DNA of 33,521 bases from a virus. Location: IMG/VR virus record IMGVR_UViG_3300042922_000364, positions 1 through 33,521 of that record; one strand, 5' to 3'. Below the pieces are notes generated by a model. That model worked only from the letters and a program-made list of their open reading frames with translations, did no database searches and had not been told where the DNA came from. The position numbers and the translations under genes were made by a program. Positions 1,609 through 33,521 of the stretch are shown piece by piece. Position 1 is the first letter of the stretch. Each line of letters opens with the position of its first letter.

Positions 1609-1789
1609 ATTTTTGATACTTTAATGTAGCCGGTTTTAGAATATTCTCCAATACAGTACAGGCGGCTACCTGTGTGCTCTTTATTGTATGTGAATAGGTG
1701 TTGACTAATATACTTGTCTGAGCGTGTCCGGTGAGATCCTTCAATGTACGAAGATCTGTTCCATCAGTTATTTCTAGAGTAGCGAAGGT
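1607..1789 (-). pseudogene. Tyrosine recombinase (integrase), C-terminal 60 codons, truncated by the prophage
   Basis: Read on the minus strand, 60 codons and a TAA stop (1607-1609) give the end of a phage or ICE integrase: TFATLEITDGTDLRTLKD, then LTGHAQTS with the conserved histidine box, then NTYSH with the tyrosine nucleophile, then a helical tail. Normal family members have LRH just before TFATL. Here the integrase reading starts precisely with T at base 1789, and the upstream bases belong to the prophage end. The catalytic arginines and the N-terminal domains are therefore lost and the gene cannot act. With the tRNA-Met remnant it marks an older tRNA-integrated element that the Mu-like phage later entered. 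Confidence 0.85.
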
Positions 1790-1818
1790 TGTACTCAGAC
1801 AGGATAAGTGACAAACCG
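1790..1818 (+). repeat. Left prophage end, transposase recognition sequence
   Basis: TGTA (1790-1793), GACAGGAT (1798-1805) and TGACAAACCG (1809-1818) match, at the same spacing, the parts TGTA, GACAAGAT and TGACAAATCG of the right end read inward. The TG terminus and the two repeated GACA motifs 12 bp apart suggest the terminal MuA-type binding site. A further TGACAAA lies at 1899-1905 and may be an internal site. Confidence 0.75.
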
Positions 1819-1860
1819 GGATAACCCGGGAAACCGCGGGAAAAATCGAGAAAAACCAGT
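1815..1860. repeat. Degenerate tandem repeats around a CCGGG/CGGGAA core
   Basis: Just inside the left end, the units AACCGGGAT, AACCCGGGAA, AACCGCGGGAA and AAATCGAGAA follow each other at 10-11 bp steps, about one helix turn. AGCGGG recurs at about 1866 and 1886. Such helically phased repeats near a transposable phage end could bind transposase or a bending protein. Function is inferred from position only. Confidence 0.45.
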
Positions 1861-1915
1861 ATTTAAGCGGGTTTACATGGTTTTCAGCGGGAATGCATTG
1901 ACAAAAATATTGAGA

Positions 1916-1947
1916 AACGGCGTCGAACTCAACGGCGCTGTTTTTTT
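1916..1947 (+). terminator. Possible intrinsic terminator near the left end
   Basis: AACGGCGTCG (1916-1925) pairs with CGGCGCTGTT (1933-1942) with one mismatch and one G-T pair, loop AACTCAA, followed by a T run to 1947. In this orientation it would stop transcription that enters the prophage from the left flank and shield the control region. Confidence 0.6.
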
Positions 1948-2064
1948 ATGCCATCTTTCCCCTACTGCGACAACCATCGCGACGCTCGCGTAACAACCGG
2001 AAACTTGCAGAAAACACCGAAAAATCGCTATACACCGCCGTTAATTCTCGTTCAGACAAACAGA

Positions 2065-2130
2065 AAGAGCCGCTTAAATACCCCGGAAGCCTCAGCAGCA
2101 GAGAGGAGGAAGGGTACTTGAGCGGCTCTT
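2065..2130. repeat. Long imperfect hairpin, possible terminator of the repressor transcript
   Basis: The arm at 2065-2083 pairs with 2112-2130 over 19 positions with one G-T pair and one mismatch, enclosing a purine-rich loop. Read on the minus strand the stem is followed by a pyrimidine-rich tract (TTTCTGTTTGTCTG), so it may end the minus-strand repressor transcript. It could instead be part of a structured RNA. Confidence 0.5.
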
Positions 2131-2177
2131 GTCTTAATTATAGCGCCGGGGGGCTGCGAAAGCAACGGGCCCGCCGT

Positions 2178-2214
2178 GCTAACGCGCCGTTAGAAAGTGC
2201 GAAAAAGCGTTAGC
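2178..2214. repeat. Inverted repeat GCTAACGC / GCGTTAGC
   Basis: GCTAACGC at 2178-2185 is repeated inverted at 2207-2214, and a further CGTTAG at 2188-2193 can pair with the first arm, so two alternative hairpins are possible. A similar CTAACG-based hairpin occurs in the late-region gap at 17044-17074. Confidence 0.45.
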
Positions 2215-2345
2215 CAACCAGCCAAAATGACAAAACACGTTCTTATCACGCACGTCGGGGGCATTATTGGCGTTATTCACACCGTTCTTGTGCGTACATA
2301 GAACTGGTCGCACCCGTTATAAACTGGCATGAATATGCGGGCCGT

Positions 2346-2449
2346 CAATTCTACATTTCAGCAAATCGCGAAATTGTTGTAGAATTGCCGGATTCATGCG
2401 GGTTTCAGCCTGCCTAATCAACGCTGGAAACCATGTTTTCAATTCTACA
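2346..2449. repeat. Three copies of CAATTCTACA, one inverted
   Basis: Exact copies at 2346-2355 (plus), 2378-2387 (inverted) and 2440-2449 (plus). The first two form a hairpin whose outer stem is extended by GCATGAAT (2327-2334) and ATTCATGC (2392-2399). The inverted form reads TGTAGAATTG and shares its first five bases with the right prophage end (TGTAG read inward). This suggests internal transposase or regulatory-protein sites, but that is inference. Confidence 0.5.
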
Positions 2450-2487
2450 TTTTTTTGATATACAAGTAAATCAAAAAGCGTAAAAAA

Positions 2488-2928
2488 TCAAGCTGTTCCC
2501 TTGGTGTTATTATTGGGGACGAATTCGGTTGCGGTCTCTTCGGTATATGTCGAGAATAATGACCTTCCGCTCCCTTTTTGATTAGCTCTATCATACTTCA
2601 TTTTGATGTTATCAAAGGCGTCTTCCCTGTCTCGCTCGTCTAACGCACGATACATTTGCACAAGACCATACTCAGCATCGGAAATGGACAGATGATTTTC
2701 ATTGGTTAAAGATTCATCAGCTTGAATCTTATTAAGGTCGTGAAACAACAGATCATCAGCAGAAATCTCGAAAAAACGTGAAAGCGAAATAATAGCATCA
2801 AATCCGGGCTTTGCTCGATCACGTTCCCAATCGCCAACGTTTCCCGCTGATACGCCTATAGCAGCAGCAAGTTGTGTTTGAGTAACCCCTTTTTTACTTC
2901 GTAATTGCTTAAGATATGTAGAAAACAT
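2488..2928 (-). CDS. XRE-family phage repressor (immunity repressor)
   Basis: A 146-residue DNA-binding protein. Residues about 5-60 form a Cro/C1-type helix-turn-helix domain (YLKQLRSKKGVTQTQLAAAI, then GVSAGNVGDWERDRAKPGFD), followed by an acidic linker and a C-terminal part around residues 85-110 that could mediate dimer contacts. No LexA-type Ser-Lys autoprotease motif is evident. The ATG at 2926-2928 is preferred over an earlier Met because GAGGAGA lies 5 bp before it, and the longer N-terminus would translate the operator region. It is transcribed away from the early operon and shares the intergenic switch with it, as Mu c does. It most likely keeps the prophage silent. Its sequence is unlike Mu c, which has a different fold. 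Confidence 0.88.
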   Translation of the reverse strand: MFSTYLKQLRSKKGVTQTQLAAAIGVSAGNVGDWERDRAKPGFDAIISLSRFFEISADDLLFHDLNKIQADESLTNENHLSISDAEYGLVQMYRALDERDREDAFDNIKMKYDRANQKGSGRSLFSTYTEETATEFVPNNNTKGTA

Positions 2929-2941
2929 AATTGTCTCCTCT

Positions 2942-3003
2942 CGAATATTCGCAAAAAATCTTATGGAAATCACGAATATTCGTTGACAATCCTCGAATAT
3001 TCG
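2942..3003. promoter_or_regulatory. Three operator palindromes CGAATATTCG
   Basis: Perfect 10-bp palindromes lie at 2942-2951, 2973-2982 and 2994-3003. Centre spacing is 31 and 21 bp, that is three and two helix turns, so all face the same side. The third lies between the -35 and -10 of the early promoter, the second abuts its -35, and the first lies near the expected start of the repressor transcript. They are the obvious binding sites of the adjacent XRE repressor, perhaps also of the Ner-like protein. Confidence 0.85.
2960..2989 (-). promoter_or_regulatory. Candidate repressor promoter
   Basis: On the minus strand TTGTCA (2984-2989) is followed after 18 bp by CATAAG (2960-2965), a weak -10. 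The -35 overlaps the early -35 on the other strand and the second palindrome lies in the spacer. Transcription would start near operator 1, which would allow autoregulation. Confidence 0.45.
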
Positions 3004-3011
3004 TGTATAGT
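2983..3011 (+). promoter_or_regulatory. Early promoter
   Basis: TTGACA (2983-2988), a 17-bp spacer and TATAGT (3006-3011) form a near-consensus sigma-70/SigA promoter. Operator 3 occupies the spacer. It drives the rightward early operon, and its strength fits a promoter that must be held off by a repressor. Confidence 0.88.
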
Positions 3012-3073
3012 ATTGATATACAAATAAATCAAGTAAATCATAGCACAAACCATTCTAAAAAGAAACAAAAAAA

Positions 3074-3114
3074 GATAGCAAAAATGATAGCTGTGAACTA
3101 TCAAAAATGCTATC
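3074..3114 (+). promoter_or_regulatory. Leader hairpin just before the first early gene
   Basis: GATAGC (3074-3079) pairs with GCTATC (3109-3114) and GATAG (3086-3090) with CTATC (3098-3102). The two stems are separated by a symmetric AAAAAT/AAAAAT internal loop. The structure ends 3 nt before the AAGGAG ribosome site at 3118-3123, so it may tune translation of the first early gene or protect the 5' end. No ligand class is recognised. Confidence 0.5.
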
Positions 3115-3131
3115 AAAAAGGAGTGAAATCA

Positions 3132-3290
3132 ATGAGGCATGGGAAGCGTCCGACGAGGGCGCAGAAAATCACAATCAATCAGTATGGTCTTAATTCTGAG
3201 AACTGGCTCGTTATTCGGGCAACGAAGGAAGATATCATTGTCCTTCACAAACACACAAACCGAGTGCGGAAAATTCCCGCCGCGAGTTGA
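3132..3290 (+). CDS. DUF6906-type small protein
   Basis: A 52-residue basic protein, first gene of the early operon. Its start MRHGKRPTRAQKITINQYGL and the following NSENWLVIRATKEDIIVLHK fit the DUF6906 pattern found in many Firmicutes prophages (a short K/R-rich start, then LNPDNWLV-like and a short beta hairpin). The ATG at 3132 follows AAGGAG by 8 nt. A longer frame exists upstream but has no ribosome site and would cross the operators. Function is unknown. Its place directly behind the repressor-controlled promoter suggests early expression. Confidence 0.75.
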   Translation: MRHGKRPTRAQKITINQYGLNSENWLVIRATKEDIIVLHKHTNRVRKIPAAS

Positions 3291-3304
3291 AAGGAGAGGA
3301 ACGG

Positions 3305-3535
3305 ATGGTAACAGCACGAAAGCGTGGACATTTAATTTCCTATATTGGTGGTATATGGGTGTATGTCAGCGACAACAAGCCAATTGGCCAAGAAGAACGA
3401 CCCTGTGTTCGGTGCGGTAGATTGCCGACGCCGGAAGGTTATGATGCTTGTCTCGGCTATGTTGAGGGTGCAACATCGGCTTGTTGTGGACATGGGGTTG
3501 AGAATGCCTACATAGTTAGAAATCAAGATAGCTAA
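3305..3535 (+). CDS. Small cysteine-rich phage protein
   Basis: A 76-residue protein with a probable zinc site: CVRCGRLPTPEGYDACLGYV followed by ACCGHG. The CxxC and the later CCGHG could hold one metal. The segment PTPEGYDACLG...ACCGHG is, from memory, a recurrent motif of small uncharacterised Firmicutes phage proteins. ATG at 3305 follows AAGGAGAGG. A TTG at 3287 would overlap the previous stop and lacks its own site. It probably contacts nucleic acid or protein, but no function can be assigned. It lies 14 bp after the DUF6906-type gene in the early operon. Confidence 0.68.
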   Translation: MVTARKRGHLISYIGGIWVYVSDNKPIGQEERPCVRCGRLPTPEGYDACLGYVEGATSACCGHGVENAYIVRNQDS

Positions 3536-3550
3536 TGAAAGGAGCACAAA

Positions 3551-4051
3551 ATGAAAACAGTTCTTAAGTATTTGCAAGAGCAGGAAGAAATGGCATGGCA
3601 CAACCGGCTTTGTTACTCTCAAAACTACGGGATGGATACTCCGAAGGTTGGTTATGAGAAGGAATTCAAGGAAAGCGTCAGAGATTGTGAGATAGTCGAG
3701 GAGCTACTTAAACTTGTAAAAGAAAAAGAGACGCCCGCAGAGCAGACGCCTCCATGTGATTACTCTTTGCAAAAGAAAACCGTTTTGCTTATCAAAAAGC
3801 ACTGTATACCAAAACGTTTGTACATTGACCATGGCAATGATTATGTGCCGGATATATTTCCGAGTGAAGGCACCATTTGTTTCGTTACCTTGCAAGGAAT
3901 ACCGTTCAAGGGTCAGATATTTAGCAGCTCTAAGCTTATGGGATGGATTGGGCAACGAGTGCTTTTAAAATTCACCAGTGATGGACGGGCGATAGCTTTT
4001 ACCAGTTCAGGCGAAAGAATCGGGGTACTCACTTCTTATCCGTTGGAGTGA
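3551..4051 (+). CDS. Hypothetical early protein
   Basis: A 166-residue protein with a good ribosome site (AAAGGAG, 7 nt before the ATG). Residues 1-60 are helical and charged (LKYLQEQEEMAWHNRL, KEFKESVRDCEIVEELLKLV). Residues 75-166 look beta-rich (KRLYIDHGNDYVPDIF, GTICFVTLQGIPFKGQIF, QRVLLKFTSDGRAIAFTSSG). I do not recognise a family. Its 3' end overlaps by 23 bp the end of a gene on the opposite strand. Early genes in this place in Mu-like phages are often host-takeover or counter-defence accessory genes, but nothing here proves that. Confidence 0.65.
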   Translation: MKTVLKYLQEQEEMAWHNRLCYSQNYGMDTPKVGYEKEFKESVRDCEIVEELLKLVKEKETPAEQTPPCDYSLQKKTVLLIKKHCIPKRLYIDHGNDYVPDIFPSEGTICFVTLQGIPFKGQIFSSSKLMGWIGQRVLLKFTSDGRAIAFTSSGERIGVLTSYPLE

Positions 4052-4286
4052 AGTCGAGAAAATCAGGCTCGGCAAGGTCATCAAAGTTGTGAGTATGCTG
4101 AGAAATAAATTGTTCGGTCATAAATTGGATAGCATCGTTCCATTCTTCAAGCGTAACGATACCCTTATCCATCAGAATTTTCAAGAGCGCACGTGCTCCA
4201 ATTTCATCAGCAACCATCGAAGTGGTCAGGCCAGTTACAAAGTTTGTCTTCGACAACTCACGAACATACTTTTCTTGTTTAGTCAT
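4029..4286 (-). CDS. Hypothetical protein on the minus strand, inside the early region
   Basis: An 85-residue acidic protein starting MTKQEKYVRELSKTNFVTGL and ending DLAEPDFLDFTPTDKK. It is predicted to be mostly helical with no known motif. The ATG (4284-4286) follows AAAGGGGG by about 8 nt, which supports translation, whereas a start nine codons earlier does not. A TATAAT-like box lies on the same strand at 4323-4328. It converges on the preceding early gene with a 23-bp tail overlap, so it would be transcribed against the early operon and could be made in the lysogen. The frame is not a simple shadow because the opposite strand is largely non-coding over most of its length. Confidence 0.6.
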   Translation of the reverse strand: MTKQEKYVRELSKTNFVTGLTTSMVADEIGARALLKILMDKGIVTLEEWNDAIQFMTEQFISQHTHNFDDLAEPDFLDFTPTDKK

Positions 4287-4345
4287 ATCATTTACCCCCT
4301 TTCTATGATGCAATGTAATTTCATTATAGAAGAATGGAGGAGGAT

Positions 4346-4513
4346 ATGAAAGTCATTTGTAAAAACGCAAACGGCGCCGCACTTACACTCTTTGAAGAAT
4401 ATGAGGCCAAACCCGCGGTTAATCGGGATTATTACAGAATCATTGACGACGAGGGAAACCTCAACAGTTTCAGAACCTTTCGGTTTACCCCTGTACCCAT
4501 TATGAAAAATTGA
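4346..4513 (+). CDS. Small hypothetical protein (55 aa)
   Basis: ATG at 4346 follows GGAGGAGG with a short spacer, and the frame runs 55 codons to TGA at 4511-4513. The product starts MKVICKNANGAALTLFEEYE and has a central YYRIIDDEGNLNSFRTFRF, which could form a small beta hairpin. No family is recognised. The very strong ribosome site and sensible codon use support it as a real gene. It precedes the HTH gene in the early operon. Confidence 0.62.
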   Translation: MKVICKNANGAALTLFEEYEAKPAVNRDYYRIIDDEGNLNSFRTFRFTPVPIMKN

Positions 4514-4551
4514 AGTGAATCTTAGAACCATTACAGAAAGGAGGACGCCCG

Positions 4552-4749
4552 ATGAAGAGCAGAGAAGTAACGCCGTTTGGTGTATCTGTGAAGAAAAAGC
4601 TGATTGACAAGAGAATGTCTCAGGTGGAACTTGCGGATGCCCTCGGGGTTAAAAAGCAATATCTCAGTTTGATTTTCTCTGGCGCACGGTCAGGGGAAAA
4701 ATACAGAAACAGAATTATTGAGATTCTTGAGCTCGAAAGAGCAGGATAA
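4552..4749 (+). CDS. Small XRE-family HTH regulator, Ner/Cro-like
   Basis: A 65-residue protein made almost entirely of a helix-turn-helix: VKKKLIDKRMSQVELADALG, then VKKQYLSLIFSGARSG and a final helix. The length and place (early operon, between the switch and transposase) match Ner of Mu, which turns down early and repressor transcription; here the fold looks like XRE rather than Ner. AAAGGAGG lies 8 nt before the ATG. It probably acts on the CGAATATTCG operators or on its own sites. It could instead aid transposase regulation. Confidence 0.75.
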   Translation: MKSREVTPFGVSVKKKLIDKRMSQVELADALGVKKQYLSLIFSGARSGEKYRNRIIEILELERAG

Positions 4750-4762
4750 AGGAGGAAACAGT

Positions 4763-5110
4763 ATGAATAAAACAGCCGCTATTATTGCGAGTTGCACAAC
4801 CCTTGAGAAACAGCTCGACGTGAAGCCTACCCAGTTAGGGGAAATCATGGGCTTAAAGTGTAAGGTGAAAGCGTACAAAAGGTACGAGAGCGAACTTGAA
4901 GACGAAATCAGTGAAGCAGGTCTTGCACTTTATGATTACATCCAAGAGGTCAGAGCCCGTACCGAGGCCTTTGAAGGAATGTTGGAAGCAACGAGGGCGC
5001 AGCGGGAAAAAGTCGAAAGTTTGTTAGCTGAAAAAGAAAGTTCTGGACAAAAGGAAAGAGAGCTTCCCGACACCACTCGAAAAAGCTCTCTAACCGTGAA
5101 AGACTCGTGA
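4763..5110 (+). CDS. Hypothetical coiled-coil early protein
   Basis: A 115-residue protein. Residues 1-40 (NKTAAIIASCTTLEKQLDVK, then PTQLGEIMGL) may fold into a small helical domain, and residues 50-95 are a long charged helix (EDEISEAGLALYDYIQEVRA, then EGMLEATRAQREKVESLLAE) with coiled-coil character. The ATG at 4763 follows AAAGGAGG; an in-frame ATG 15 codons upstream lies inside the HTH gene and has no site. The C-terminal coding bases contain hairpins at 5057-5091 and 5099-5119 that might weakly attenuate transcription before the transposase. Function unknown. Confidence 0.65.
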   Translation: MNKTAAIIASCTTLEKQLDVKPTQLGEIMGLKCKVKAYKRYESELEDEISEAGLALYDYIQEVRARTEAFEGMLEATRAQREKVESLLAEKESSGQKERELPDTTRKSSLTVKDS

Positions 5111-5173
5111 AAAGTCTTTGTTTATATTATACCATGAATCCCTCGAAAATCAATCCGGAAGGAGGGGCAGCAG

Positions 5174-7225
5174 TTGCCGGAATCTTTTGTCACAATGGAC
5201 GAGGCCGCAAGCTATGAGGGCATTAAATACAAGACGTTTGCACAGCGTGTCGCACGAAATCCAAAAGTCTTCAAAACAAAAACCGAGCCGCAGGAAGACG
5301 GCGGAAAAGACCGGGTTTTGGTTTCCCTGTCTTCCCTCACCACAAAAGCCCGTAAGGCGCACAAGGCGGTACAAAAAGTAAATGGGAGGGATGTCATCAT
5401 AGAAGCAAGAGCCAATGAAACGCCGTGGTATATCGACGTGGATTTGAACTGGTACATAGAAACCCACAAGGAACAGTATTACAAAGCCGTTGAGCTCTGC
5501 AAGCAGATTCAGCAGTTTGTCGAATATGGCGACGGAGAGCGAACCGCTTTTGCCGGAGCCTTTGCATCACAGCTCGGAATGAGCCAAAGAACGCTGTACC
5601 GCTGCGCGGAGGGATATCTTGAAGCCAGTGCGTGGGCGCTTCAAACCGAAAAGGAAGAGGGCCGCAGCTACGATTATTTCAAGGTGCTTTCCCTTTGCCG
5701 AAAGCCCAAGGAATCGCACACCTTTCCCAGCTTGACAGATGAGCAGAAGGCACTCATTGAAAACATTTGGTTCGACAAGCACTTCGCCGCGAACCTCGGA
5801 ACGATTGAAATGCTCTACTGGAAGTTTGAAGAAGTCGCCCATAAACAGCAATTTGAGAATTACCCCTCCATTAAGACAGTGGCCCGGTACATCAAGTACC
5901 TAATGGATGACTGCCACGGAGAAACTGCCCGTTTCCTCGCCGCCAACGGGACACGGGAATGGAAAAACAAGCGGATGCTCAAAGGCAAGCGCGACACGGC
6001 CTCCCTCGCCGTTATGGAGTTTGTTCAGGGCGACGAACACACCTTCGATGTGTGGGTGCAATTCACGCAACCGAACGGGAAAATCAAAGCCGTCCGCCCG
6101 AAGCTGGTCGCTTGGCTGGATACCCGGACGCGCTGCATCCTCGGAGACGTGGTTTGTGTCGACGCCAACTCGCAGACCTTGAAGGAATCGCTTGTCAAGA
6201 TGATATATGGTTCGCCGGGCGGCGTACCGAAGCACCTGCACATTGATAACGGCAAAGATTACACTTCAAAGACCAACACCGGGCAGAGCCGCAACGAGCG
6301 GGCTATGGACTTTGACAGCGAGACGAGAGGCTTTTACCGTTCCATCGGGATTGAAGAATGGTCGCGCTCCCTGCCTTATGAGCCTTGGGGAAAAGGTCAG
6401 ATTGAACGGTTCTTCGGTACGGTTTGCGCCCGGTTTTCAAAATGGTTTGAATCCTATGTCGGAACGCTGACGGGCTCCAAGACCTACGCAAAGCGTCAAA
6501 AGGATATTCCGGGAATGCTGGAGCACGGGGAACTGCTCACAATGGAAGAGTTTTACGGACTTTGGACGAAATGGAAAAACGAGTTTTACCACCGCCGTGA
6601 ACACAGCGCCCTTCGCCAAAACCGGGAGAAATACTTCTCGCCTATAGACCTGTTCGAACATGCCGAAGAAAGATACGTCAAGGCCCCGCCCCCGCGCGAA
6701 TATGCGGCCATGATGCTGATGAAGTCGGACAAGGCGCTTGTGAGAAATCAAGGTATCATCAAATTTGGCACGCTCTACACGGCTTATGAGCTTTGTAATT
6801 ATATTGGCCGTACAGTAGGTATCAAGTGGGACGCCGACGATGTCACAAAGTTGTATGTCTTTGATCAGGCCGGGAAAAAGATATGTGAGTCCGTGTCCGC
6901 CGAACTCTTGCAGATTGCCCCGAAGGTTCCGCAGGCTCTCCTTGAGGAACACCTGAAAAAGCAGAAGCGGCAGTTCCGTGAAGCGCGGGAACAGCTTGAA
7001 GAATTCACAACGCCGTTTGAAGCCCGCAAGGCCGAAAATGCAACGCCGGATATTGTGGGCGGTCTTGACCTGACCATCAGGGCGGAACGACCGGAAAAGA
7101 TTATCGCGCTCCCGCAGGATAAGGAATATCGGTCATCCGGAAGCAAGTCTAAGAAAAACGGCGATGACACGTTCATCACCGAAAAAGCAGAAACGGCCCT
7201 TGAAATGCTCAGGGCCCTCAGTTAA
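5174..7225 (+). CDS. Mu A-like DDE transposase
   Basis: A 683-residue protein that cuts the phage ends and joins them to target DNA. The N-terminal part (about 1-75) resembles the winged-helix end-binding region of MuA-type proteins, with further HTH segments near 120-145 (FASQLGMSQRTLYRCAEGYL). The RNase-H core has the acidic triad by alignment to MuA motifs: D287 (in VQGDEHTFDVW), D358 (in HLHIDNGKDY) and E411 (in WGKGQIERFFG). A MuA-like beta-barrel follows (about 500-570) and then a charged tail likely to bind the ATPase. The start is TTG at 5174, 7 nt after GGAAGGAGGGG; the first ATG seven codons later has no site. Length is close to MuA (663). All three acidic residues are present, so it should be active. 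Confidence 0.95.
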   Translation: MPESFVTMDEAASYEGIKYKTFAQRVARNPKVFKTKTEPQEDGGKDRVLVSLSSLTTKARKAHKAVQKVNGRDVIIEARANETPWYIDVDLNWYIETHKEQYYKAVELCKQIQQFVEYGDGERTAFAGAFASQLGMSQRTLYRCAEGYLEASAWALQTEKEEGRSYDYFKVLSLCRKPKESHTFPSLTDEQKALIENIWFDKHFAANLGTIEMLYWKFEEVAHKQQFENYPSIKTVARYIKYLMDDCHGETARFLAANGTREWKNKRMLKGKRDTASLAVMEFVQGDEHTFDVWVQFTQPNGKIKAVRPKLVAWLDTRTRCILGDVVCVDANSQTLKESLVKMIYGSPGGVPKHLHIDNGKDYTSKTNTGQSRNERAMDFDSETRGFYRSIGIEEWSRSLPYEPWGKGQIERFFGTVCARFSKWFESYVGTLTGSKTYAKRQKDIPGMLEHGELLTMEEFYGLWTKWKNEFYHRREHSALRQNREKYFSPIDLFEHAEERYVKAPPPREYAAMMLMKSDKALVRNQGIIKFGTLYTAYELCNYIGRTVGIKWDADDVTKLYVFDQAGKKICESVSAELLQIAPKVPQALLEEHLKKQKRQFREAREQLEEFTTPFEARKAENATPDIVGGLDLTIRAERPEKIIALPQDKEYRSSGSKSKKNGDDTFITEKAETALEMLRALS

Positions 7226-7242
7226 AAACAGGAGGAATCACA

Positions 7243-8214
7243 ATGGAAGCAGCAGCAAAACTTTATGTTACCGAAGAGAAATCCCTTGCAGATAAAGTCA
7301 ACGAGTATATCACAAAAAATCACCTTACTATTGCATCGGTTGCGGAAGCAATCAACTACTCACGCCCGACCATGTCCCGATATCTGTGCGGAAAATACGA
7401 CAGCGACGCCAGTGAGCTTGAATCAAAGCTCGCCGTTTGGCTTTCAGGAATGACCAAGGGAGAGGAAATACAACTTACGACAGACCAGCCAACCCCGCTG
7501 CGGCTCATGAAGCGGCAGGGATTCTTTGAAAGCCGCGACGCTAAGGATGTGATCGGCGTGTGCAGCTCATGTCAGGAGTACATCGGACTCGGCATCGTAG
7601 TCGGAAAGTCCGGCTTCGGCAAGACCCACGCACTCAAGTATTATTCCAAAATGCCCCGCACGGCGTACATTGAATGCGACGACACCATGAGCAGCCGCGA
7701 CCTTGTGGAAGCCATTGAAAAGGCACTCGGAATCCCGAACGGGTACGGGACAATTTGGAAGAGGGTCAACGGAATCCGGGAATTTTTCAGTGTGAACAAA
7801 GGATATCTCCTCATTATTGACGAAGCGGATAAACTCATTTCCAAATTCACGCAAAAGAAGATGGAAATTCTCCGGGCCATATTTGACCAAACCGATGTCG
7901 GCATGGTGATTGCCGGGGAGCCCCGGCTGGAAGCGCAAATCAAATCCTACCTGAACCGTTTTGCCAACCGGATTGACTTTTATGCAAATCTTAAGGGGCT
8001 TGCGGGAAAAGAAGTCGAAGCATTCCTTACCGGATACGAAGTCGAAGAGGACGCTCTCGCAGAGCTCAAAGCACGAGCCTGCAACAATCAAACAGGATGC
8101 TTCCGGCTGCTTGACCGGACGCTGAACAACGTGTTCCGTATTCTGAACAACCGTGGCGAACTCAAAATCACGGTGGAAATCATCAAGCAGGCATCCGGTA
8201 TGATGATGCTGTAA
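7243..8214 (+). CDS. Mu B-like AAA+ ATPase, transposition target-DNA activator
   Basis: A 323-residue ATPase. Residues 1-70 carry an XRE-like HTH (HLTIASVAEAINYSRPTMSR), the non-specific DNA-binding part also seen in MuB. The AAA+ core has Walker A GKSGFGKT (about 121-128) and Walker B LLIIDEADK (about 189-197). It resembles the TniB/ExeA/MuB group. It starts 17 bp after the transposase stop with an AGGAGG site, so the two are co-translated. MuB-type proteins coat target DNA, stimulate strand transfer and give target immunity. The catalytic motifs are complete. Confidence 0.93.
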   Translation: MEAAAKLYVTEEKSLADKVNEYITKNHLTIASVAEAINYSRPTMSRYLCGKYDSDASELESKLAVWLSGMTKGEEIQLTTDQPTPLRLMKRQGFFESRDAKDVIGVCSSCQEYIGLGIVVGKSGFGKTHALKYYSKMPRTAYIECDDTMSSRDLVEAIEKALGIPNGYGTIWKRVNGIREFFSVNKGYLLIIDEADKLISKFTQKKMEILRAIFDQTDVGMVIAGEPRLEAQIKSYLNRFANRIDFYANLKGLAGKEVEAFLTGYEVEEDALAELKARACNNQTGCFRLLDRTLNNVFRILNNRGELKITVEIIKQASGMMML

Positions 8215-8247
8215 TCTCAAAATAACTGACAAAAGGAGCGTTTTAGA

Positions 8248-8454
8248 ATGTTTGAACTAAAGCCCAATATCAATGAAATTTCTCTATCTAAATTGAGGTC
8301 ACTGCCACTGCCCGCAATTGAAAAGCTTCATCGGAAGTATGGCATTGATTTCGTGATCAACGATGGGCAGCTCGTCGGCATAACAGGCGTTACCGTTGGA
8401 TTTGACTACGGCTCGGGAGCAGATATGACCGCCCTTTGCCCGGCGGCACTTTGA
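8248..8454 (+). CDS. Small hypothetical protein
   Basis: A 68-residue protein starting MFELKPNINEISLSKLRSLP and containing KLHRKYGIDFVINDGQLVGI. The ATG at 8248 has AAAGGAG upstream. It resembles small genes seen between the B-type ATPase and gam in other Firmicutes Mu-like prophages, but I know no function. It lacks membrane segments and cysteine pairs. Confidence 0.6.
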   Translation: MFELKPNINEISLSKLRSLPLPAIEKLHRKYGIDFVINDGQLVGITGVTVGFDYGSGADMTALCPAAL

Positions 8455-8470
8455 AAGGAAGTATGGAATA

Positions 8471-8995: not shown

Positions 8996-9007
8996 GGGGG
9001 AAGGAAA

Positions 9008-9645: not shown

Positions 9646-9649
9646 CATT

Positions 9650-10051: not shown

Positions 10052-10065
10052 AGGAGGACTTCGTG

Positions 10066-10365: not shown

Positions 10366-10437
10366 ATTCAAGTGAAAAACGCAAAAAAACTCAGAAGTAC
10401 TACAGATATTACATTCATCCAAAATACGGTAATCTTA

Positions 10438-26291: not shown

Positions 26292-26309
26292 TGGTTCGGA
26301 GGGATAACC

Positions 26310-26933
26310 TTGATTTATGTAGATGACAGCACAGTTAAAGTCGGCGGGGTTATTCTCCCCGGCCTCTTCAAAAGCATTGAAATCAAAAGCGATGCGCAGA
26401 TCGACGAGCAGACGGTCGAGGGCAGTACAGCCAAACCCAAGCAAGCAACCGGCTATGAGGACGCCAAAATTACCGTGGAGCTTGTACTGGAGGACAGCCC
26501 AAAAGAAACGAAGGAGCAGAAGCTTACCAAGATTCAAAACCTCTTTAGGGCTTCCGGGCAGGCGAAACCTATCGTACACGATATTGTAAATACGCACACG
26601 GCTATTCGCGGGATTAAGAAAGTGCTGTTCAAATCCTTGTCAACCAAAGAGCAAAACACTAAGACCAGCGAAATTACGGCCAGTATGGAATTTTGGGAGT
26701 ATGTGCCGACTACCATCACCGCGACCAAGGCAAGCAGCTCCTCAAAGAAAAAGAGCAGTTCAAAAAGCAGTTCCGCAACAAGCGGATTGAGCGCATCATA
26801 TCAAAGCTATTTAAAGAATGATCGTGGCAAAGCGCCAAAGGCAGCAAGCAAAACCGCCAGCTCCCCCGCAAAGGATACGGCGGACAGCTCAAGATATAAA
26901 TATCAGATATCCGGATTGCTTAAGGAGGATTGA
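26310..26933 (+). CDS. Baseplate/tail protein (Mu gpN position)
   Basis: A 207-residue protein following the tape measure. The first 135 residues are beta-rich and resemble small baseplate hub-associated proteins of Firmicutes myophages (MIYVDDSTVKVGGVILPGLF, EDAKITVELVLEDSPKETKE, ASMEFWEYVP). Residues about 140-200 are low-complexity Ser/Lys/Ala (SSSSKKKSSSKSSSATS), probably a flexible linker. It has no LysM domain. The start is TTG 26310, 6 nt after GGAGGG. In Mu this place is held by N, whose name as a DNA circulation protein does not clearly apply here. Confidence 0.7.
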   Translation: MIYVDDSTVKVGGVILPGLFKSIEIKSDAQIDEQTVEGSTAKPKQATGYEDAKITVELVLEDSPKETKEQKLTKIQNLFRASGQAKPIVHDIVNTHTAIRGIKKVLFKSLSTKEQNTKTSEITASMEFWEYVPTTITATKASSSSKKKSSSKSSSATSGLSASYQSYLKNDRGKAPKAASKTASSPAKDTADSSRYKYQISGLLKED

Positions 26934-26939
26934 CTGTAT

Positions 26940-27695
26940 ATGTCAGAAACAGAATTGTTTTATCCTGAGATATCTGCCAGTGTCGGAAATTACAATTTCA
27001 TCAAGGGAATTGAAATTGAATCATATTCCTCAAAGACTTCCTATTTTGATTGGGCTAAAATTAGATTCACAGAAGAGTTTCAGCCGAAGATCAGCCTTGC
27101 ATCCGGGGATAAGGCGTCAATTGAACTTGGGTATGACGGTGCGCTGGAAGAGGTCTTTCAGGGCTATGTACTGAAAGGATACAACGGCGGCACCTCTCTG
27201 AATGAAATCCTGCTGAAGGATGATATGTTGACATTGGAAAGCACCAGCATCACCAGCACTTTCCTAAATGCAACGCCAAGGGAGATCATTTCTTTTGCAC
27301 TTTCAAAAGCAGGGGTCAAGGCGTCGGTGATTTCAAAAACGGCATACCCTGCCAAGAAGATGTTTGCTGTTTCAAAGAAGAGCATCGTTGCGCTGCTACA
27401 GGAGATCAATGCAGCTTGGAACATCAGCGTAAAGTTCTTCTTCCGTGGCGGCGTGTTCTATTGGGGAGAAGCTCCAAAACAAACCGATATATACGAGTTC
27501 AACTATGCAAAAAATATCATATCCCTTGACCGGGTCAACGGCATATGGGAACTCGTTACCGTATCGGCCCCATTTATCCATCATTCGGACATTATTCGAG
27601 TTGACCACCCGGAAACATCGGGAGATTTTGAAGTCAGCAAGGTTGTGTTTTCAACGAATTCAACAGGGTTTATCCGCACTTACATTTACTTCTAA
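26940..27695 (+). CDS. Baseplate hub protein (Mu gpP / gp44-like)
   Basis: A 251-residue protein shorter than the Mu hub (379). It has hub features: a start ETELFYPEISASVGNYNFIK, a beta-rich first part (DWAKIRFTEEFQPKISLASG, KASIELGYDGALEEVFQGYV), then a helix-containing middle (NATPREIISFALSKAGVKAS) and VALLQEINAAWNISVKFFFR with GVFYWGE. These resemble the gp27/gpD hub fold. TAAGGAGG lies 11 nt before ATG 26940. It would form the trimeric centre of the baseplate onto which the spike docks. Confidence 0.82.
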   Translation: MSETELFYPEISASVGNYNFIKGIEIESYSSKTSYFDWAKIRFTEEFQPKISLASGDKASIELGYDGALEEVFQGYVLKGYNGGTSLNEILLKDDMLTLESTSITSTFLNATPREIISFALSKAGVKASVISKTAYPAKKMFAVSKKSIVALLQEINAAWNISVKFFFRGGVFYWGEAPKQTDIYEFNYAKNIISLDRVNGIWELVTVSAPFIHHSDIIRVDHPETSGDFEVSKVVFSTNSTGFIRTYIYF

Positions 27696-27708
27696 GGAGG
27701 CAGGCCGT

Positions 27709-27993
27709 ATGATCGAGGAGCTCGTGCAAACAGGCGTTAACAAAGTATTAAGCGAAGAATTTCCGCACCTGCTCCGCCCAGCTTTTGTGTGCGCGAGGAT
27801 AACGAAGGCGCAGGATGCAGGCGGTTACTACGTTTACAATCTCAAAATACTTGACAAAACGGGCGAGATTGACAGCAGCTTTTCCGAAATACCGAGCATT
27901 CACTCTAAGGTTCAGGCAGCGACAGGAGCGACCGTTGCCGTCGCATTGCTTTATGGAGAGCTTAATCCCTTTATCATTGCGGAGGTAGTTTGA
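27709..27993 (+). CDS. Baseplate spike-like protein, short OB-fold (Mu gp45 position)
   Basis: A 94-residue protein, starting MIEELVQTGVNKVLSEEFPH and then a beta part (AFVCARITKAQDAGGYYVYN, LKILDKTGEIDSSFSEIPSI, and ATVAVALLYGELNPFIIAEV). The arrangement is that of an OB fold as in gpV spikes but lacks the long C-terminal helix seen in full-length spikes, so it may be only the base of the spike. AAGGAGG precedes the ATG at 27709. The stop overlaps the next start (TGATG). Confidence 0.65.
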   Translation: MIEELVQTGVNKVLSEEFPHLLRPAFVCARITKAQDAGGYYVYNLKILDKTGEIDSSFSEIPSIHSKVQAATGATVAVALLYGELNPFIIAEVV

Positions 27994-28406
27994 TGGCACA
28001 GATTAACGATACAGACATTCGGCTGGATGCAGCTTATCAGCTCACGCAGGCCACCAATGGCGACGCCCCCATTGCTTCGGGGCTGGACTGTGTCTTTCAG
28101 GATATCCAGCTTGAGGCACATTCGCAGGAAGGCGAACTTTTCTATGACGAGGCTTGGGGATGGTCGCTTCTTGACTTCCTCCAGAGCGAGGATGACGAGC
28201 TACTTCGCCTCGAAATTCAGGAGCGCATCAAAGAAAAGCTGGCGCGGCGTTCTGAGGTAGACGTGGAAACAATCACAACCTTAGTCAGCATCAGCGACGA
28301 TACTATTTCAATTCACACAACATTCAGTTTTATCAGCAATTCCCAAACGCAGACCGTGGATGTCGATTTAGATCGGGTTAAAGTGGAGGTGACAGACAAT
28401 GCTTGA
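27993..28406 (+). CDS. Baseplate protein, gp25/gpW-like (Mu gp46)
   Basis: A 137-residue protein with gp25-like features: DTDIRLDAAYQLTQATNGDA, DIQLEAHSQEGELFYDEAWG, LLDFLQSEDDELLRLEIQER and a beta end (DDTISIHTTFSFISNSQTQT). It forms part of the baseplate wedge that triggers sheath contraction. ATG 27993 lies 7 nt after GGAGG, and the TGATG junction couples it to the previous gene. It overlaps the next gene by 8 bp. Confidence 0.87.
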   Translation: MAQINDTDIRLDAAYQLTQATNGDAPIASGLDCVFQDIQLEAHSQEGELFYDEAWGWSLLDFLQSEDDELLRLEIQERIKEKLARRSEVDVETITTLVSISDDTISIHTTFSFISNSQTQTVDVDLDRVKVEVTDNA

Positions 28407-29529
28407 TGACGAGATTTTAGACAGCGTTCTTCCGGTTCCTGATTTGAACACCTTGAAAGATGAGACCGTCACAGAGCTTCAGAGCGAAGGCTTTGTTATT
28501 TCAAACTTTCAATCAGGAGGCGTCTTCTATACCATACTGATGATCGTCCTAAATGTCCGTATTGAACTTGTGAAGCTGCTCCGCACGGTATTATCAAATA
28601 TGTTTGTTTCCAGTGCAGCAGATGGTTGGCTTGAAATTAAGGCTGCTGATTTTGCCAAGAAGCGCAAGGCCGCTATCAAAACGCAAGGCAAGGTGACAGT
28701 TGCGCGGCAGGCTTCCGGCGAGGGTATAACCATTCCAAAGGGTCAAGTGTTCAAAACCATCAAGGATATAAACGGTGAGGAGCTGCGCTTCTTTGCTTTG
28801 GCCGACACGGTGCTGCAGCAGGGCACTCTCAGTGTTGATGTTCCGGTGGAGGCCGAAATAGAGGGCTCCCGGTACAATGTCCCACAAGACCAAATCAAAA
28901 ACAGCCTGACGCACATTGAGGGAATAGATACCATTTCGAACGGTGCGGGCTGGATTACCACGGAGGGCAGCGATATTGAAGATGTCGAAAGCCTGCGCTC
29001 CCGGGTGCTCAATGCGTGGGCCGAGCTCTCCACGCTGCCGATTGCGGATAAATATAAAAACGTCTGCGAGGCAGTTCCGGGCGTCTTGTTCGTCCGGGTC
29101 GATGATCAGCATCCGCGCGGACAGGGCACGGTGGACATCATCGTTACCGGTACGGCGGGTGAAGCTACTGAGGGGCTTCTAACGCTTGTCAGAGCCGCAG
29201 CAGATGCAATAAAAGGGCCGTCCGATGATGTACTGGTCAAGAGTTCAACAACGGTTGCACAGCCCATCACGTTAACCGTAACGGTTCCCGATTCCATCAA
29301 CTCGGATGGACTTGAAGACAAGGTGGTTTCAGCTCTCACTGAGCTGCTGAAGGTTCAGAAAAATCGCAGCTTAAATGAGTTGACTTTGGCGGATATTATC
29401 TATACGGTCAAGAGTAAAGTTTCGGAAGTGCAAAACGTCAAGGTCACGACCCCGACGGCTGACGTCGAACTGGATACCGACAAGATCGTCATTGCGGGTG
29501 CAATGGCCGTAACAGTGCAAAAGGTGTGA
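28399..29529 (+). CDS. Baseplate J-like protein (Mu gp47)
   Basis: A 376-residue protein of the baseplate J family. Signature segments are VISNFQSGGVFYTILMIVLN, ADGWLEIKAADFAKKRKAAI, KGQVFKTIKDINGEELRFFA, the linker NGAGWITTEGSDIEDVESLR and VPGVLFVRVDDQHPRGQGTV. J proteins form the wedge that links sheath, fibres and hub. GGAGG lies 9 nt before the ATG. The length matches Mu gp47 (about 360). Confidence 0.93.
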   Translation: MLDDEILDSVLPVPDLNTLKDETVTELQSEGFVISNFQSGGVFYTILMIVLNVRIELVKLLRTVLSNMFVSSAADGWLEIKAADFAKKRKAAIKTQGKVTVARQASGEGITIPKGQVFKTIKDINGEELRFFALADTVLQQGTLSVDVPVEAEIEGSRYNVPQDQIKNSLTHIEGIDTISNGAGWITTEGSDIEDVESLRSRVLNAWAELSTLPIADKYKNVCEAVPGVLFVRVDDQHPRGQGTVDIIVTGTAGEATEGLLTLVRAAADAIKGPSDDVLVKSSTTVAQPITLTVTVPDSINSDGLEDKVVSALTELLKVQKNRSLNELTLADIIYTVKSKVSEVQNVKVTTPTADVELDTDKIVIAGAMAVTVQKV

Positions 29530-29533
29530 GAGT

Positions 29534-30106
29534 ATGTTTGATAACTTCGGAGACTATATGTTTTCGCTGCTGTTTACCCCTCTAAAAAAAGTAAAGAAAG
29601 CAGTAAATCAGTTCTATATTTTTTTCAAAGTAGTCGGTAAGCTTTTCGACAAAACCAAGGAAGACATTTTCAAAGTTCGGGAAGAATCCATGATTATCAC
29701 CGCGAGCGAACCTATACTGAACGTCCACGGAAAAGACAGAGGTATGACCCGTCTGAAAGGGGAAAGCATTGAGGGATACCGAACACGCCTCTCTATGAAG
29801 GGAATCATTGCAGAAAAAGCGGGGTCGTTGCCGGGTGTTATTTTGGCGGTCAAGGCGCTTGGTTATCAAAACGTGAGGGTTGAACCAATGTACTTGACTG
29901 ACCCCACCCGATGGGCCGAGGCCACGCTTTGGATAAGCGGCGGCGATTTTATCGTGACAGACAGACAAGTCATTTTGAACGAGATCAACAAGGTAAAACC
30001 GGCAACAACAAAGTTCACTTTAGCGCAGGAACAGAACTATGACTGTACGATTTATTGGGGCGGGCCCTTGGAAATCGGCAGAATCAGAGAATTTAGGCAG
30101 GTGTAA
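29534..30106 (+). CDS. Baseplate/tail protein, Mu gp48-like
   Basis: A 190-residue protein after the J-like gene. It reads FDNFGDYMFSLLFTPLKKVK, AVNQFYIFFKVVGKLFDKTK, VHGKDRGMTRLKGESIEGYR, TRLSMKGIIAEKAGSLPGVI and a beta-rich end. Helical start plus beta end and the position fit gp48/gpI-type proteins, which join tail fibres to the baseplate. The family (DUF2313-like) is likely from the context. AAGGTG lies upstream. Confidence 0.8.
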   Translation: MFDNFGDYMFSLLFTPLKKVKKAVNQFYIFFKVVGKLFDKTKEDIFKVREESMIITASEPILNVHGKDRGMTRLKGESIEGYRTRLSMKGIIAEKAGSLPGVILAVKALGYQNVRVEPMYLTDPTRWAEATLWISGGDFIVTDRQVILNEINKVKPATTKFTLAQEQNYDCTIYWGGPLEIGRIREFRQV

Positions 30107-30109
30107 GGA

Positions 30110-30967
30110 ATGGCATTCGGAAGCTTTGTATTAACCAACTTTGGTCAGAGCCAGCTTGTAAAGGCCCATAAGGGTAAGAATATTCACTTTTCCCGAATGG
30201 CTTTGGGAGACGGGGACATCGGGACATCGTCCGTATTTGACGTTGTTCAGCTCAAATCGGAAAAGCTCTCCCTTCTGATTGATGCGATATCTATTACAGC
30301 GCAGGAGGCTCTTGTTACGGTATTGCTGTCTAACGCTCTTGTCGACACCGGATTCAACCTCCGGGAAATGGGTCTGATGGCTGTTGACCCGGATACCAGC
30401 CAAGAAGCCGTATATTGCTACAATCGGGATTCCAGCGCGGGTGAATACATTCCTGATAAAAATTCAAGCACGACGCTGCGTGAATATCTACGGATACATT
30501 GCAATGTGGAAGGCGTTCAAAACATTACCTTCCAGCCAAGTGGGAACCCGCTGTTCGTTACCCCGGAAGACCTTCAAACTTCGGTAAGCAGTCAGATCAA
30601 CGCCCTTAGAGGAGTAGCAAACGGGCTCGCAGAACTTGATGCAAACGGAAAGCTTAAGCAGATGCCGACACCTAATGATGTCGGCGCAGCGTCCAAGTCA
30701 CATTCAGCTCCGGTGACATTAACTGCTGCAGGTTGGACGGGCGCAGCAGCTCCATACAGTCAGATGGTGTCAGTTGTAGGCGTCACCACGACAAGTGTAA
30801 ATGAGATTCTGCCCGGCGCATCCATTACAGCCGACCAGCTTACTGCGCTGCAGGCCGCAAACTTGCAGGACGGCGGACAGGCGGCAGGGAGCATTACACT
30901 GTTGGCCTATAGTGATAAGCCAGCGATTGATTTGCCAATCCGCGTCATTGTCAGGGGGGATATGTAG
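30110..30967 (+). CDS. Tail fibre, N-terminal attachment protein
   Basis: A 285-residue protein. Residues 1-150 match the conserved N-terminus of Firmicutes tail fibres (DUF3751-like): FGSFVLTNFGQSQLVKAHKG, IHFSRMALGDGDIG, NALVDTGFNLREMGLMAVDP. These bind the baseplate. Residues 160-285 (VANGLAELDANGKLKQMPTP onward) are a thin repetitive distal part. The receptor-binding function is probably carried by the next gene. It starts 4 bp after the previous stop. Confidence 0.87.
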   Translation: MAFGSFVLTNFGQSQLVKAHKGKNIHFSRMALGDGDIGTSSVFDVVQLKSEKLSLLIDAISITAQEALVTVLLSNALVDTGFNLREMGLMAVDPDTSQEAVYCYNRDSSAGEYIPDKNSSTTLREYLRIHCNVEGVQNITFQPSGNPLFVTPEDLQTSVSSQINALRGVANGLAELDANGKLKQMPTPNDVGAASKSHSAPVTLTAAGWTGAAAPYSQMVSVVGVTTTSVNEILPGASITADQLTALQAANLQDGGQAAGSITLLAYSDKPAIDLPIRVIVRGDM

Positions 30968-32145
30968 TGCCTAATTCCATAAAAGTTGGTGGAAATGGAA
31001 CAATTAAGTATAATGTCTTTTGCCAGCCTACCGAGCCGTCCACAAAGCATGGAATTTGGCTAAAAACCGCCGCCGTGGAGGCTATCAAAAAGATTGTGTT
31101 TGATACACAGCCTTTTGCAGCAGGAAGTTGGTTGGCAGACCAGGGAATAACGTTGCCTAATAGAAATTTATACTGTCACGCGACTTGCGTAATTGGGCAA
31201 TATATTTACATTTTTTCAGGTTTAGCAGGTAGCAGTAATCCTGCACAGTACAACTATAAATTTGACACTGTTGCAAGAACATTTACTGAACTACCCGGAT
31301 TGCCTGTTTCACTTTCGGATGTTAATATACTTACTCAAATGGACGCATTTGTTGTTAATGGTAAAATTTATCTCTTTGGGTCATATTTGCCTGTTTATAT
31401 GTATGACCCGGTTTTGAATACTTTCATGGCGAAAGCAAGCCGCCCCGGGAGTGCCAATTATAGAGCATGTGCGTTACTTGGCGATAAAGTATATGAGTTT
31501 TTACAGGATAAATCAGTATATATCTATACAATATCTTCCAATACTTGGGCGGGTTCAACAGCTATTACCGTTCCAAATACCGGCGCAAACCATGGTGTAT
31601 CTTTTACGTATAATAATAAAATTTATATTAATGACTTCTATGGTGGTTTGATAATTTACAATCCAGTAGACAAAACATTTACATTGGGGGCATCCAGCCC
31701 AATAAATGCAGGTGATGCCTGTTTTTGGGTGGGAGACGAAGTTTATTTTCTTAATAGTTATGGTAGTCCAACCCACAATATGGCTGCATATAAACCAGGA
31801 ACAAATACATGGAGATTACTTCCTGATCATCCAATACCTCAAGGTGGTATTGTAATAGGTAATGCTGTTGGAAATATGATATATGTGTTCCAATTTTGGT
31901 ATAACTGCAAAATGGCGGTGTATTCATTAACAGCCAAGCAGTACCCAGATACCCCAACCGCAGTTATTCAATATCTGTCCGGCGATGCTTCCCACGTTGC
32001 ATCGTTAATTGCAAGCAAACTATGTGATTATCTTCCATCCTATTTTAAGGATGCAATGCTTTTTAAAGACGGAAATTTGCTGTATCCGGAGCTATGGCTC
32101 GGTAATGGAACAGCATGGACAAAAATAAGGGAGGCTCAATCATGA
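30967..32145 (+). CDS. Kelch-like beta-propeller protein, receptor-binding candidate
   Basis: A 392-residue protein with about five kelch-like repeats, each with a strand ending in a hydrophobic run and a later aromatic pair: CVIGQYIYIFSG, YNYKFDTVARTFTELPGLPV, AFVVNGKIYLFGS, YMYDPVLNTFMA, ALLGDKVYEFLQ, SFTYNNKIYINDFYGGLIIY, YKPGTNTWRLLPDHPI. A short N-terminal segment (residues 1-40) could bind the fibre. It starts with GTG at 30967, overlapping the fibre stop by one base. It is clearly more AT-rich than the head genes, a sign of separate acquisition. Role as host-recognition protein is inferred from position and propeller fold. Confidence 0.75.
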   Translation: MPNSIKVGGNGTIKYNVFCQPTEPSTKHGIWLKTAAVEAIKKIVFDTQPFAAGSWLADQGITLPNRNLYCHATCVIGQYIYIFSGLAGSSNPAQYNYKFDTVARTFTELPGLPVSLSDVNILTQMDAFVVNGKIYLFGSYLPVYMYDPVLNTFMAKASRPGSANYRACALLGDKVYEFLQDKSVYIYTISSNTWAGSTAITVPNTGANHGVSFTYNNKIYINDFYGGLIIYNPVDKTFTLGASSPINAGDACFWVGDEVYFLNSYGSPTHNMAAYKPGTNTWRLLPDHPIPQGGIVIGNAVGNMIYVFQFWYNCKMAVYSLTAKQYPDTPTAVIQYLSGDASHVASLIASKLCDYLPSYFKDAMLFKDGNLLYPELWLGNGTAWTKIREAQS

Positions 32146-32393
32146 TTACAAAAGACAATCTTACCTATACGGCTACGGAAAGTGGCTATACCATCGCTTT
32201 GAACGGTACACCGTGGATTGTACAGGACGGCTATATCCCATACCCGGGTGCAACGATGTCCGAATCTGCGCAAAATCATATCAATCAAATCTTAGCAGAC
32301 CAAGCCAACGTGGAAGCTGCATCGAATCAACCAACTATGGAAGATAGAATTAAAGCGTTGGAGGCTGCGCAATTAGCAGCATTGGGGGTGTGA
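32142..32393 (+). CDS. Small tail-region protein
   Basis: An 83-residue protein starting MITKDNLTYTATESGYTIAL and containing GTPWIVQDGYIPYPGATMSE, then a helix ending LEAAQLAALGV. It overlaps the kelch gene by 4 bp and has GGGAGG upstream. Proteins of this size and wording often lie just before XkdX-like genes in Firmicutes phages and may sit on the fibre, but the function is not known. Confidence 0.65.
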   Translation: MITKDNLTYTATESGYTIALNGTPWIVQDGYIPYPGATMSESAQNHINQILADQANVEAASNQPTMEDRIKALEAAQLAALGV

Positions 32394-32396
32394 TGT

Positions 32397-32546
32397 ATGA
32401 GCGGGTATTTTGACTTTTTCAAGGTGCAGTATCAACTCGGCTTGTCAAAGGACAGGCTAAAAATGGCAGTTAAAAAAGGTTATCTAATTGTAAACGATAC
32501 TGTTGACGAATATCAGCAGATTACGGGTGAAACCTACACAGCATAG
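32397..32546 (+). CDS. XkdX-family protein
   Basis: A 49-residue protein matching the XkdX pattern: FDFFKVQYQLGLSKDRLKMA, VKKGYLIVNDTVDEYQQITG, ETYTA. The end YQQITGE is the family hallmark. XkdX proteins of Bacillus PBSX-like phages lie behind the fibre genes and their role is unknown. GGGGGTG precedes ATG 32397, which is 3 bp after the previous stop. Confidence 0.88.
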   Translation: MSGYFDFFKVQYQLGLSKDRLKMAVKKGYLIVNDTVDEYQQITGETYTA

Positions 32547-32594
32547 TTAGAGCAAAGGATAGTAGTTACTAATTTTAGAAAGAAGAAAATAAAA

Positions 32595-33299
32595 ATGAGA
32601 GATATTAAACAATTGAATCCTGAATTACAGGCAGTTATTCCGGCGTTCCTTGCCGATTGTAAGAGCAAGGGATTGAATGTTGGCATCGGTGAATGCTACC
32701 GTTCTATTGAAGAACAGGAAAATTTGTATGCAATTGGCAGAACAGTTGGAACAAAAGGGGCCGTTGTGACTAATTGCAGAGGGGTGTCATACAGTTCACC
32801 CCATCAGTGGGGCGTGGCCTTTGATTTCTTCCGAAATGTAAGGGGCCGTGAATTTGATGATTCAGACAACTTTTTTGAAAAAGTTGGAGCGATTGGCAAA
32901 GCCCACGGCCTTGAATGGGGCGGTTCATGGACTCAGGGATGGGTAGATAAACCCCATCTGCAGCTTGCTAAGTTCTTCCGTAACGGTACTACGGGATACC
33001 TCAAAGCGACCTATGGAACTCCTGCACGATTTATGGCTACATGGTCGAGTAATGCAGTGGCTTTCCACAGTGACACGACAAATCCTGTTACGGTGAAATC
33101 AGGGCATACATATCAAGCTAAGTTTACATGTGCCAATGCTCCGGTGGTTACAGCGCCCACAAGCGGTGTTGTAGATATTAAGCTGGCATCAGCAAGTAAT
33201 AATGATTACTTTTATAAATTTACAGCAATTGGAAAGCCAAAGTCAGGAACAGGCGTATGCGTTGATGGCAAAAGGATATTTGTAATTAACGTAGGATAA
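32595..33299 (+). CDS. Endolysin, M15-family peptidase with C-terminal cell-wall domain
   Basis: A 234-residue lysin. Residues 1-130 are an M15 (VanY/Ply500-like) zinc peptidase: ECYRS, the SPHQWGVAFDFF box with zinc ligands H70 and D77, and WVDKPHLQL with the third ligand H121 and acidic D118. It would cut the peptide stems of peptidoglycan (L-Ala-D-Glu or D-Ala cross-links). Residues about 140-234 (KATYGTPARFMATWSSNAVA onward) are beta-rich and likely bind the wall. No signal peptide is visible, so export depends on the holin, encoded far away at 10494. The gene is AT-rich and has a weak ribosome site (AGAAAGAAG). Confidence 0.9.
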   Translation: MRDIKQLNPELQAVIPAFLADCKSKGLNVGIGECYRSIEEQENLYAIGRTVGTKGAVVTNCRGVSYSSPHQWGVAFDFFRNVRGREFDDSDNFFEKVGAIGKAHGLEWGGSWTQGWVDKPHLQLAKFFRNGTTGYLKATYGTPARFMATWSSNAVAFHSDTTNPVTVKSGHTYQAKFTCANAPVVTAPTSGVVDIKLASASNNDYFYKFTAIGKPKSGTGVCVDGKRIFVINVG

Positions 33300-33321
33300 A
33301 TGTAGGCAGATGCAGCAAAAA

Positions 33322-33362
33322 AACGCAGCGAAAACAGGTTTAAATCCTGCTCTCACTGCGTT
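33322..33362 (-). terminator. Hairpin at right end, terminator for the minus strand
   Basis: AACGCAG (33322-33328) pairs with CTGCGTT (33356-33362), with an inner CAGG/CCTG hairpin. On the minus strand the stem is followed by a T run, while on the plus strand only TT follows before ATAC. It would mainly block transcription coming into the phage from the right. It does not clearly end the late operon. Confidence 0.65.
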
Positions 33363-33421
33363 ATACTATCCTAAGATTTACTTCTTAAAAACGTTACTTG
33401 TTTTTGCCAAATATATTGAGA

Positions 33422-33450
33422 CGATTTGTCAAAAATCTTGTCGCGCTACA
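33422..33450 (-). repeat. Right prophage end, transposase recognition sequence
   Basis: Read inward from 33450: TGTA, four bases, GACAAGAT, three bases, TGACAAATCG. It matches the left end at 20 of 29 positions in the same register. Host DNA, AT-rich and beginning TTTAATCAATT, follows from 33451. Confidence 0.75.
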
Positions 33451-33521
33451 TTTAATCAATTGCTTAATTATTGGAATTTTATGTACCCGAATAATTATGT
33501 AACTCCTGTAAAATAGAGAAT
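33451..33521. other. Right flanking DNA, AT-rich, no gene seen
   Basis: The 71 bases beyond the right end are AT-rich. They do not continue the tyrosine recombinase interrupted at the left end in any frame, although simple insertion would predict that. A 23-codon open stretch on the minus strand shows no known motif. Confidence 0.6.

Follow-up and report, generated by a model that had tools for sequence, protein, structure and literature searches.

Insertion of Escherichia phage Mu duplicates 5 bp of the target, and Mu virions carry host DNA at both ends of the packaged genome. A similar way of life has been described for phage Mushu of Faecalibacterium, in which virion reads show variable host DNA flanking both sides, packaged copies spread over the chromosome carry host tails, and the lysogen is bordered by a 5-bp direct repeat (PMC5883640). 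Variable host DNA at Mushu virion ends has also been shown in a further study (PMC11792537), and virion reads have been used to map the phage termini (PMC5883640, PMC11792537). For the Bacteroides hankyphage, a comparable phage, thousands of insertion events are detected in cell DNA following derepression (PMC12135933).

The window, by which we mean the whole stretch of DNA analysed, is an entire IMG/VR virus record of 33,521 bases in which a phage of this kind lies between a 1,789-bp left flank and a much shorter right flank. Its features are as follows.

1..849, plus strand: 3' part of a GH38 alpha-mannosidase gene in the host left flank (Pfam PF07748 and PF17677 above cut-off)
1407..1449, plus strand: 3' part of a tRNA-Met(CAT)-like sequence, from the anticodon loop to CCA (blastn to tRNA-Met genes; sequence read directly)
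1610..1789, minus strand: about 60 codons from the 3' end of a tyrosine-integrase gene, which is truncated by the left end of the phage
1785..1789: AAGGT, the 5 bp outside the left end (direct reading)
1790..1818, plus strand: phage left end, TGTACTCAGACAGGATAAGTGACAAACCG, agreeing with the right end at 20/29 and homologous to the phage ends of Mushu and of Lutispora/Ruminiclostridium
1790..33450, plus strand: Mushu-like transposable phage of 31,661 bp with both of its ends
2488..3048, minus strand: HTH repressor (HTH_3 and phage repressor PHROGs)
5174..7225, plus strand: Mu-type DDE transposase, TnpA (DDE_2, Mu-transpos_C, phrog_310; 61.9% to Mushu)
7243..8214, plus strand: transposition ATPase, MuB-like (phrog_296 DNA transposition protein, AAA_22)
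33422..33450, minus strand: phage right end, TGTAGCGCGACAAGATTTTTGACAAATCG, 25/29 to the Mushu right end
33451..33455: TTTAA, the 5 bp outside the right end, no copy of AAGGT (direct reading)
33451..33521: right flank, to the record end, 71 bp, 24% G+C
Right-junction and right-flank site sequence: TTTAATCAATTGC
Host site sequence: TTTAATCAATTGCTTAATTATTGG

The phage and its termini

The phage is an ordinary Mu-type transposing phage, a Mushu-like replicative transposer of a known phage group. A minus-strand HTH repressor gene is followed by genes for the DDE transposase, the adjoining transposition ATPase, Gam, a holin and the terminase subunits, and further on by genes for Portal_Mu, a Mu F-like protein, the protease and capsid, and the sheath, tape measure and baseplate proteins. 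The transposase includes its C-terminal domain (matches to PF02914, PF09299 and phrog_310); over its full length it shares 61.9% identity with the Mushu transposase, and it is 57-72% identical to those of further relatives; the Mu-type head genes and Gam are recognised by PF06074, PF04233 and phrog_491. An Rfam search gave no match. Relatives of the peptidase gene at the right end are only 35-53% identical and uninformative on the right flank.

The preliminary description of this DNA had placed the phage termini at 1790 and 33450, and our comparisons bear this out. Bases 1790-1818 agree with the complement of 33450-33422 at 20 of 29 positions, both beginning TGTA, and among all 299,150 register pairs between 851-2400 and 33301-33521 this is the only one to reach that score. 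A blind local-score test of the two end regions against dinucleotide shuffles is not significant by itself (8.5, with shuffles reaching 13), and we accept the assignment mainly because these imperfect inverted TGT...ACA ends are homologous to the mapped termini of Mushu, whose genome starts with TGTGGGGAGACAGGATATTTGAGAAA and ends, read inwards, with TGTAGCGCGACACGATTTTTGAGAAA. The left end of the window phage, TGTACTCAGACAGGATAAGTGACAAA, matches its Mushu counterpart at 19 of 29 positions and the right end, TGTAGCGCGACAAGATTTTTGACAAA, at 25 of 29; the ends of other relatives match as well. Judged by this homology, the phage ends at 1790 and 33450 are correctly identified. The preliminary description had also considered that a better pair of ends with a true 5-bp repeat might exist, and none was found within about 15 bp of the termini.

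Host DNA on either side of the phage

A search with the mannosidase fragment through about 1,250 genomes, sampled around the relatives at the levels of order, family, class and phylum, gave no near relative of the host, the best matches being 44% identical. The integrase fragment gives a weak Pfam Phage_integrase match (positions 135-168 of 172, E 0.028) and, by tblastn to annotated integrases, a best annotated E value of 3e-3. This minus-strand gene is cut just before TFATLEITDG; the catalytic LRH motif would presumably stand just upstream of TFAT, that is, where the phage cuts the gene. The tRNA-Met-like sequence at 1407..1449, a partial one (a complete tRNA was sought in the window and not found), is probably the attachment-site copy of an integrative element. 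Within 1407-1789 it lies beside the 3' end of the integrase, and this region probably represents the attachment site of an element whose integrase gene the phage interrupted. If the gene was indeed interrupted in this way, the element would be disabled.

The right flank has no match elsewhere in the window, an exact 26-bp piece of it has none in viral contigs, and exact patterns drawn from both phage ends and both flanks likewise gave no matches in viral contigs. The two flanks are indeed mismatched as had been described: AAGGT borders the phage on its left and TTTAA on its right, and there is no 5-bp duplication. The truncation of the integrase noted earlier is confirmed too: its 3' end runs on the minus strand up to the left end, and no frame of the 71-bp right flank continues it.

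Target duplications and contig breaks among relatives

In relatives where both ends could be located, we read the 5 bp outside each. Perfect 5-bp duplications border seven of the eight insertions on long cellular contigs: ATGGA in Ruminiclostridium sufflavum, ACTTG in R. papyrosolvens, TTCAG (with the ends on two contigs) and CCAAA (around a 4.9-kb element) in Lutispora thermophila, AAAAT in IMG 2788499847, AACAC in an Intestinibacillus MAG and TCAAT in a Clostridium thermobutyricum MAG. Five of the seven are in cultured or non-metagenome genomes and two in binned MAGs, where IMG 2788499847, like IMG 2599185230 below, is taken as non-metagenome from IMG numbering alone. Since seven of eight relatives carry the perfect repeat, the transposase of this family duplicates 5 bp. 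The window phage itself most likely duplicates 5 bp of its target in the normal way.

The eighth cellular insertion, G859 (IMG 2599185230), has long flanks and no duplication (ATGGG on one side, TAGAT on the other), which implies either that true loss occurs or that this assembly is faulty too; within this phage group it is the strongest natural candidate for a true rearrangement. A XerD-like recombinase gene has its 3' end close to the left end of this insertion (L221, L222, L253, L254).

The unbinned metagenome contigs present a different picture. The duplication is absent from G008 (flanks of 26 and 25 bp), G016 (28 and 70 bp) and G842 (83 and 365 bp), so that with the window none of four unbinned contigs has it, as against seven of eight long cellular ones (Fisher P 0.010, from small numbers and a post hoc grouping). 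Four further prophages (G838, G847, G848, G867), which have a clear left end and no identifiable right end in the stored stretch, were omitted from this count. In two different metagenomes (L160 and L169), identical left-flank bases, aaaacctc, stand beside near-identical left ends, which suggests one insertion sampled twice.

Contigs of this group also show a tendency to break off where the phage ends, which one would expect if the host sequence beyond differs between copies. One (G012) starts and stops exactly on both phage termini, and another (G863), with a left flank of 7,588 bp, stops exactly at the right end. The left end was placed with confidence in 14 metagenome contigs, and seven of these stop 0, 4, 26, 28, 73, 83 and 122 bp outside it; in six non-metagenome records the left flank extends from 372 to at least 7,095 bp. 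The 71-bp right flank of the window falls in the same class as these short stops.

Two further observations come from Lutispora thermophila DSM 19022. The 4.9-kb element (L107:2469-7389; G005:C44:19468-24388) has both Mushu-type ends and the CCAAA duplication and lacks a transposase; it encodes a Mor-like late activator, the major capsid protein, a head protease and a neck protein. Its capsid gene precedes the protease gene, unlike the phage order. A full-length phage with near-identical ends resides in the same genome, and the small element may be either a deletion derivative or a satellite that carries the capsid gene and is mobilised by the phage. The transposase gene of that full-length phage (L007:10001-12079) has an in-frame stop near codon 85 and may be inactive there.

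Origin of the mismatched flanks

We think it likely that the record joins a left flank of 1,789 bp and a right flank of sub-read length, 71 bp, that come from different insertions. This reading is favoured because the attached host DNA differs from copy to copy, both in Mushu virions and in replicating Mu-type DNA. It also agrees with the absence of the duplication from the other unbinned contigs, with the contig stops at phage ends, and with the window being a virus record. The assembler would have been given DNA containing several insertions of one phage, whether these were replicating copies, virions that had packaged host tails or a number of lysogens, with the left end joined to one host site, inside the tyrosine-integrase gene, and the right end to another. 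Where host sequence varies between copies at an end, the contig would either stop or extend along a single read or the commonest branch; a single phage body would be kept, with the commonest or a chance-read flank attached at each end, and the outcome would be a contig with the right ends, unrelated flanks and no duplication. Mixed insertions in one contig explain the mismatch without any rearrangement. The lack of a duplication is most likely an artefact of assembly that follows from the phage's way of life. Two observations count against this: the long left flank, which means that the left junction is well supported, and the lack of a duplication in G859, non-metagenome by its number.

The preliminary description had instead inferred that the prophage had already moved or rearranged its host chromosome, by intramolecular replicative transposition producing an adjacent deletion or inversion, or by recombination between two phage copies. 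The flanks would then be true neighbours of one prophage, although they came from different sites. The mismatch itself, the integrase that is not continued on the right and the repeat-less, long-flanked G859 are consistent with such an event, and there is precedent in the Mu-like phage DMS3, which produces large deletions in its lysogens and then occupies the place of the lost DNA; in evolved lysogens it replaced the deleted segment in five of seven cases (PMC11406979). However, every other unbinned metagenome contig with both flanks also lacks the repeat and each would need its own rearrangement, repeat-less insertions are rare on long cellular contigs (one in eight), and so short a right flank cannot support a single junction. 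A rearranged host is possible, though it is not the simplest reading and we regard it as unlikely; equally doubtful is its specific form, in which a phage-caused adjacent deletion or inversion replaced the 5' part of the resident element's integrase and the record is a natural snapshot of the event. In other words, the preliminary description is right about the phage ends, the truncated integrase and the absence of a duplication; a move or rearrangement does not follow from these, given the mismatch in every two-flank unbinned contig and the duplications in seven of eight cellular ones. The missing duplication is poor evidence for host rearrangement because assembly from mixed insertions is the simplest explanation.

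The last 71 bp might also come from another organism or from read error, through plain misassembly or wrong trimming of the provirus, with no second insertion involved. The right flank has no matches and is 24% G+C, whereas the mannosidase part has 46% and the remainder of the left flank 37%; composition alone is weak evidence, since about 2% of left-flank stretches of this length (71 bp) are just as rich in A+T, and the junction falls exactly on the phage end, as a real insertion gives. We consider this very unlikely. It is scarcely credible that the phage inserts without a target duplication, or with a variable one: the mismatches in the window and G859 would fit, but seven perfect 5-bp duplications belong to transposase relatives or to elements with near-identical ends, and the published Mushu lysogen has the repeat (PMC5883640).

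The practical implication is one of caution. When a virus-database contig of a Mu-type phage lacks the target duplication, that absence does not count as evidence that a genome was rearranged, since the host DNA attached to these phages differs with every copy. Our comparison also supplies ends and 5-bp duplications for a Firmicutes branch of transposable phages.

Faecalibacterium phage Mushu (Mushuvirus mushu, NC_047913) shares with the window phage the order from repressor through TnpA, TnpB, Gam, terminase and portal to tail, a transposase 62% identical and a nearly identical right end (TGTAGCGCGACA). It replicates by transposition and has variable host DNA at its virion ends. It differs in carrying a reverse-transcriptase/DGR cassette at the right end, with none among the window reading frames tested (a non-exhaustive set), and in the 5-bp repeat around its lysogen, which the window flanks lack. 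The prophages of R. sufflavum, R. papyrosolvens and L. thermophila have transposases about 70% identical to that of the window and an identical left end (TGTACTCAGACA), and all of them, unlike the window, are bordered by perfect 5-bp duplications. Escherichia phage Mu likewise has a DDE transposase and ATPase, Gam, Mu-type portal and F protein but is distant in sequence, the window phage belonging to a Firmicutes branch.
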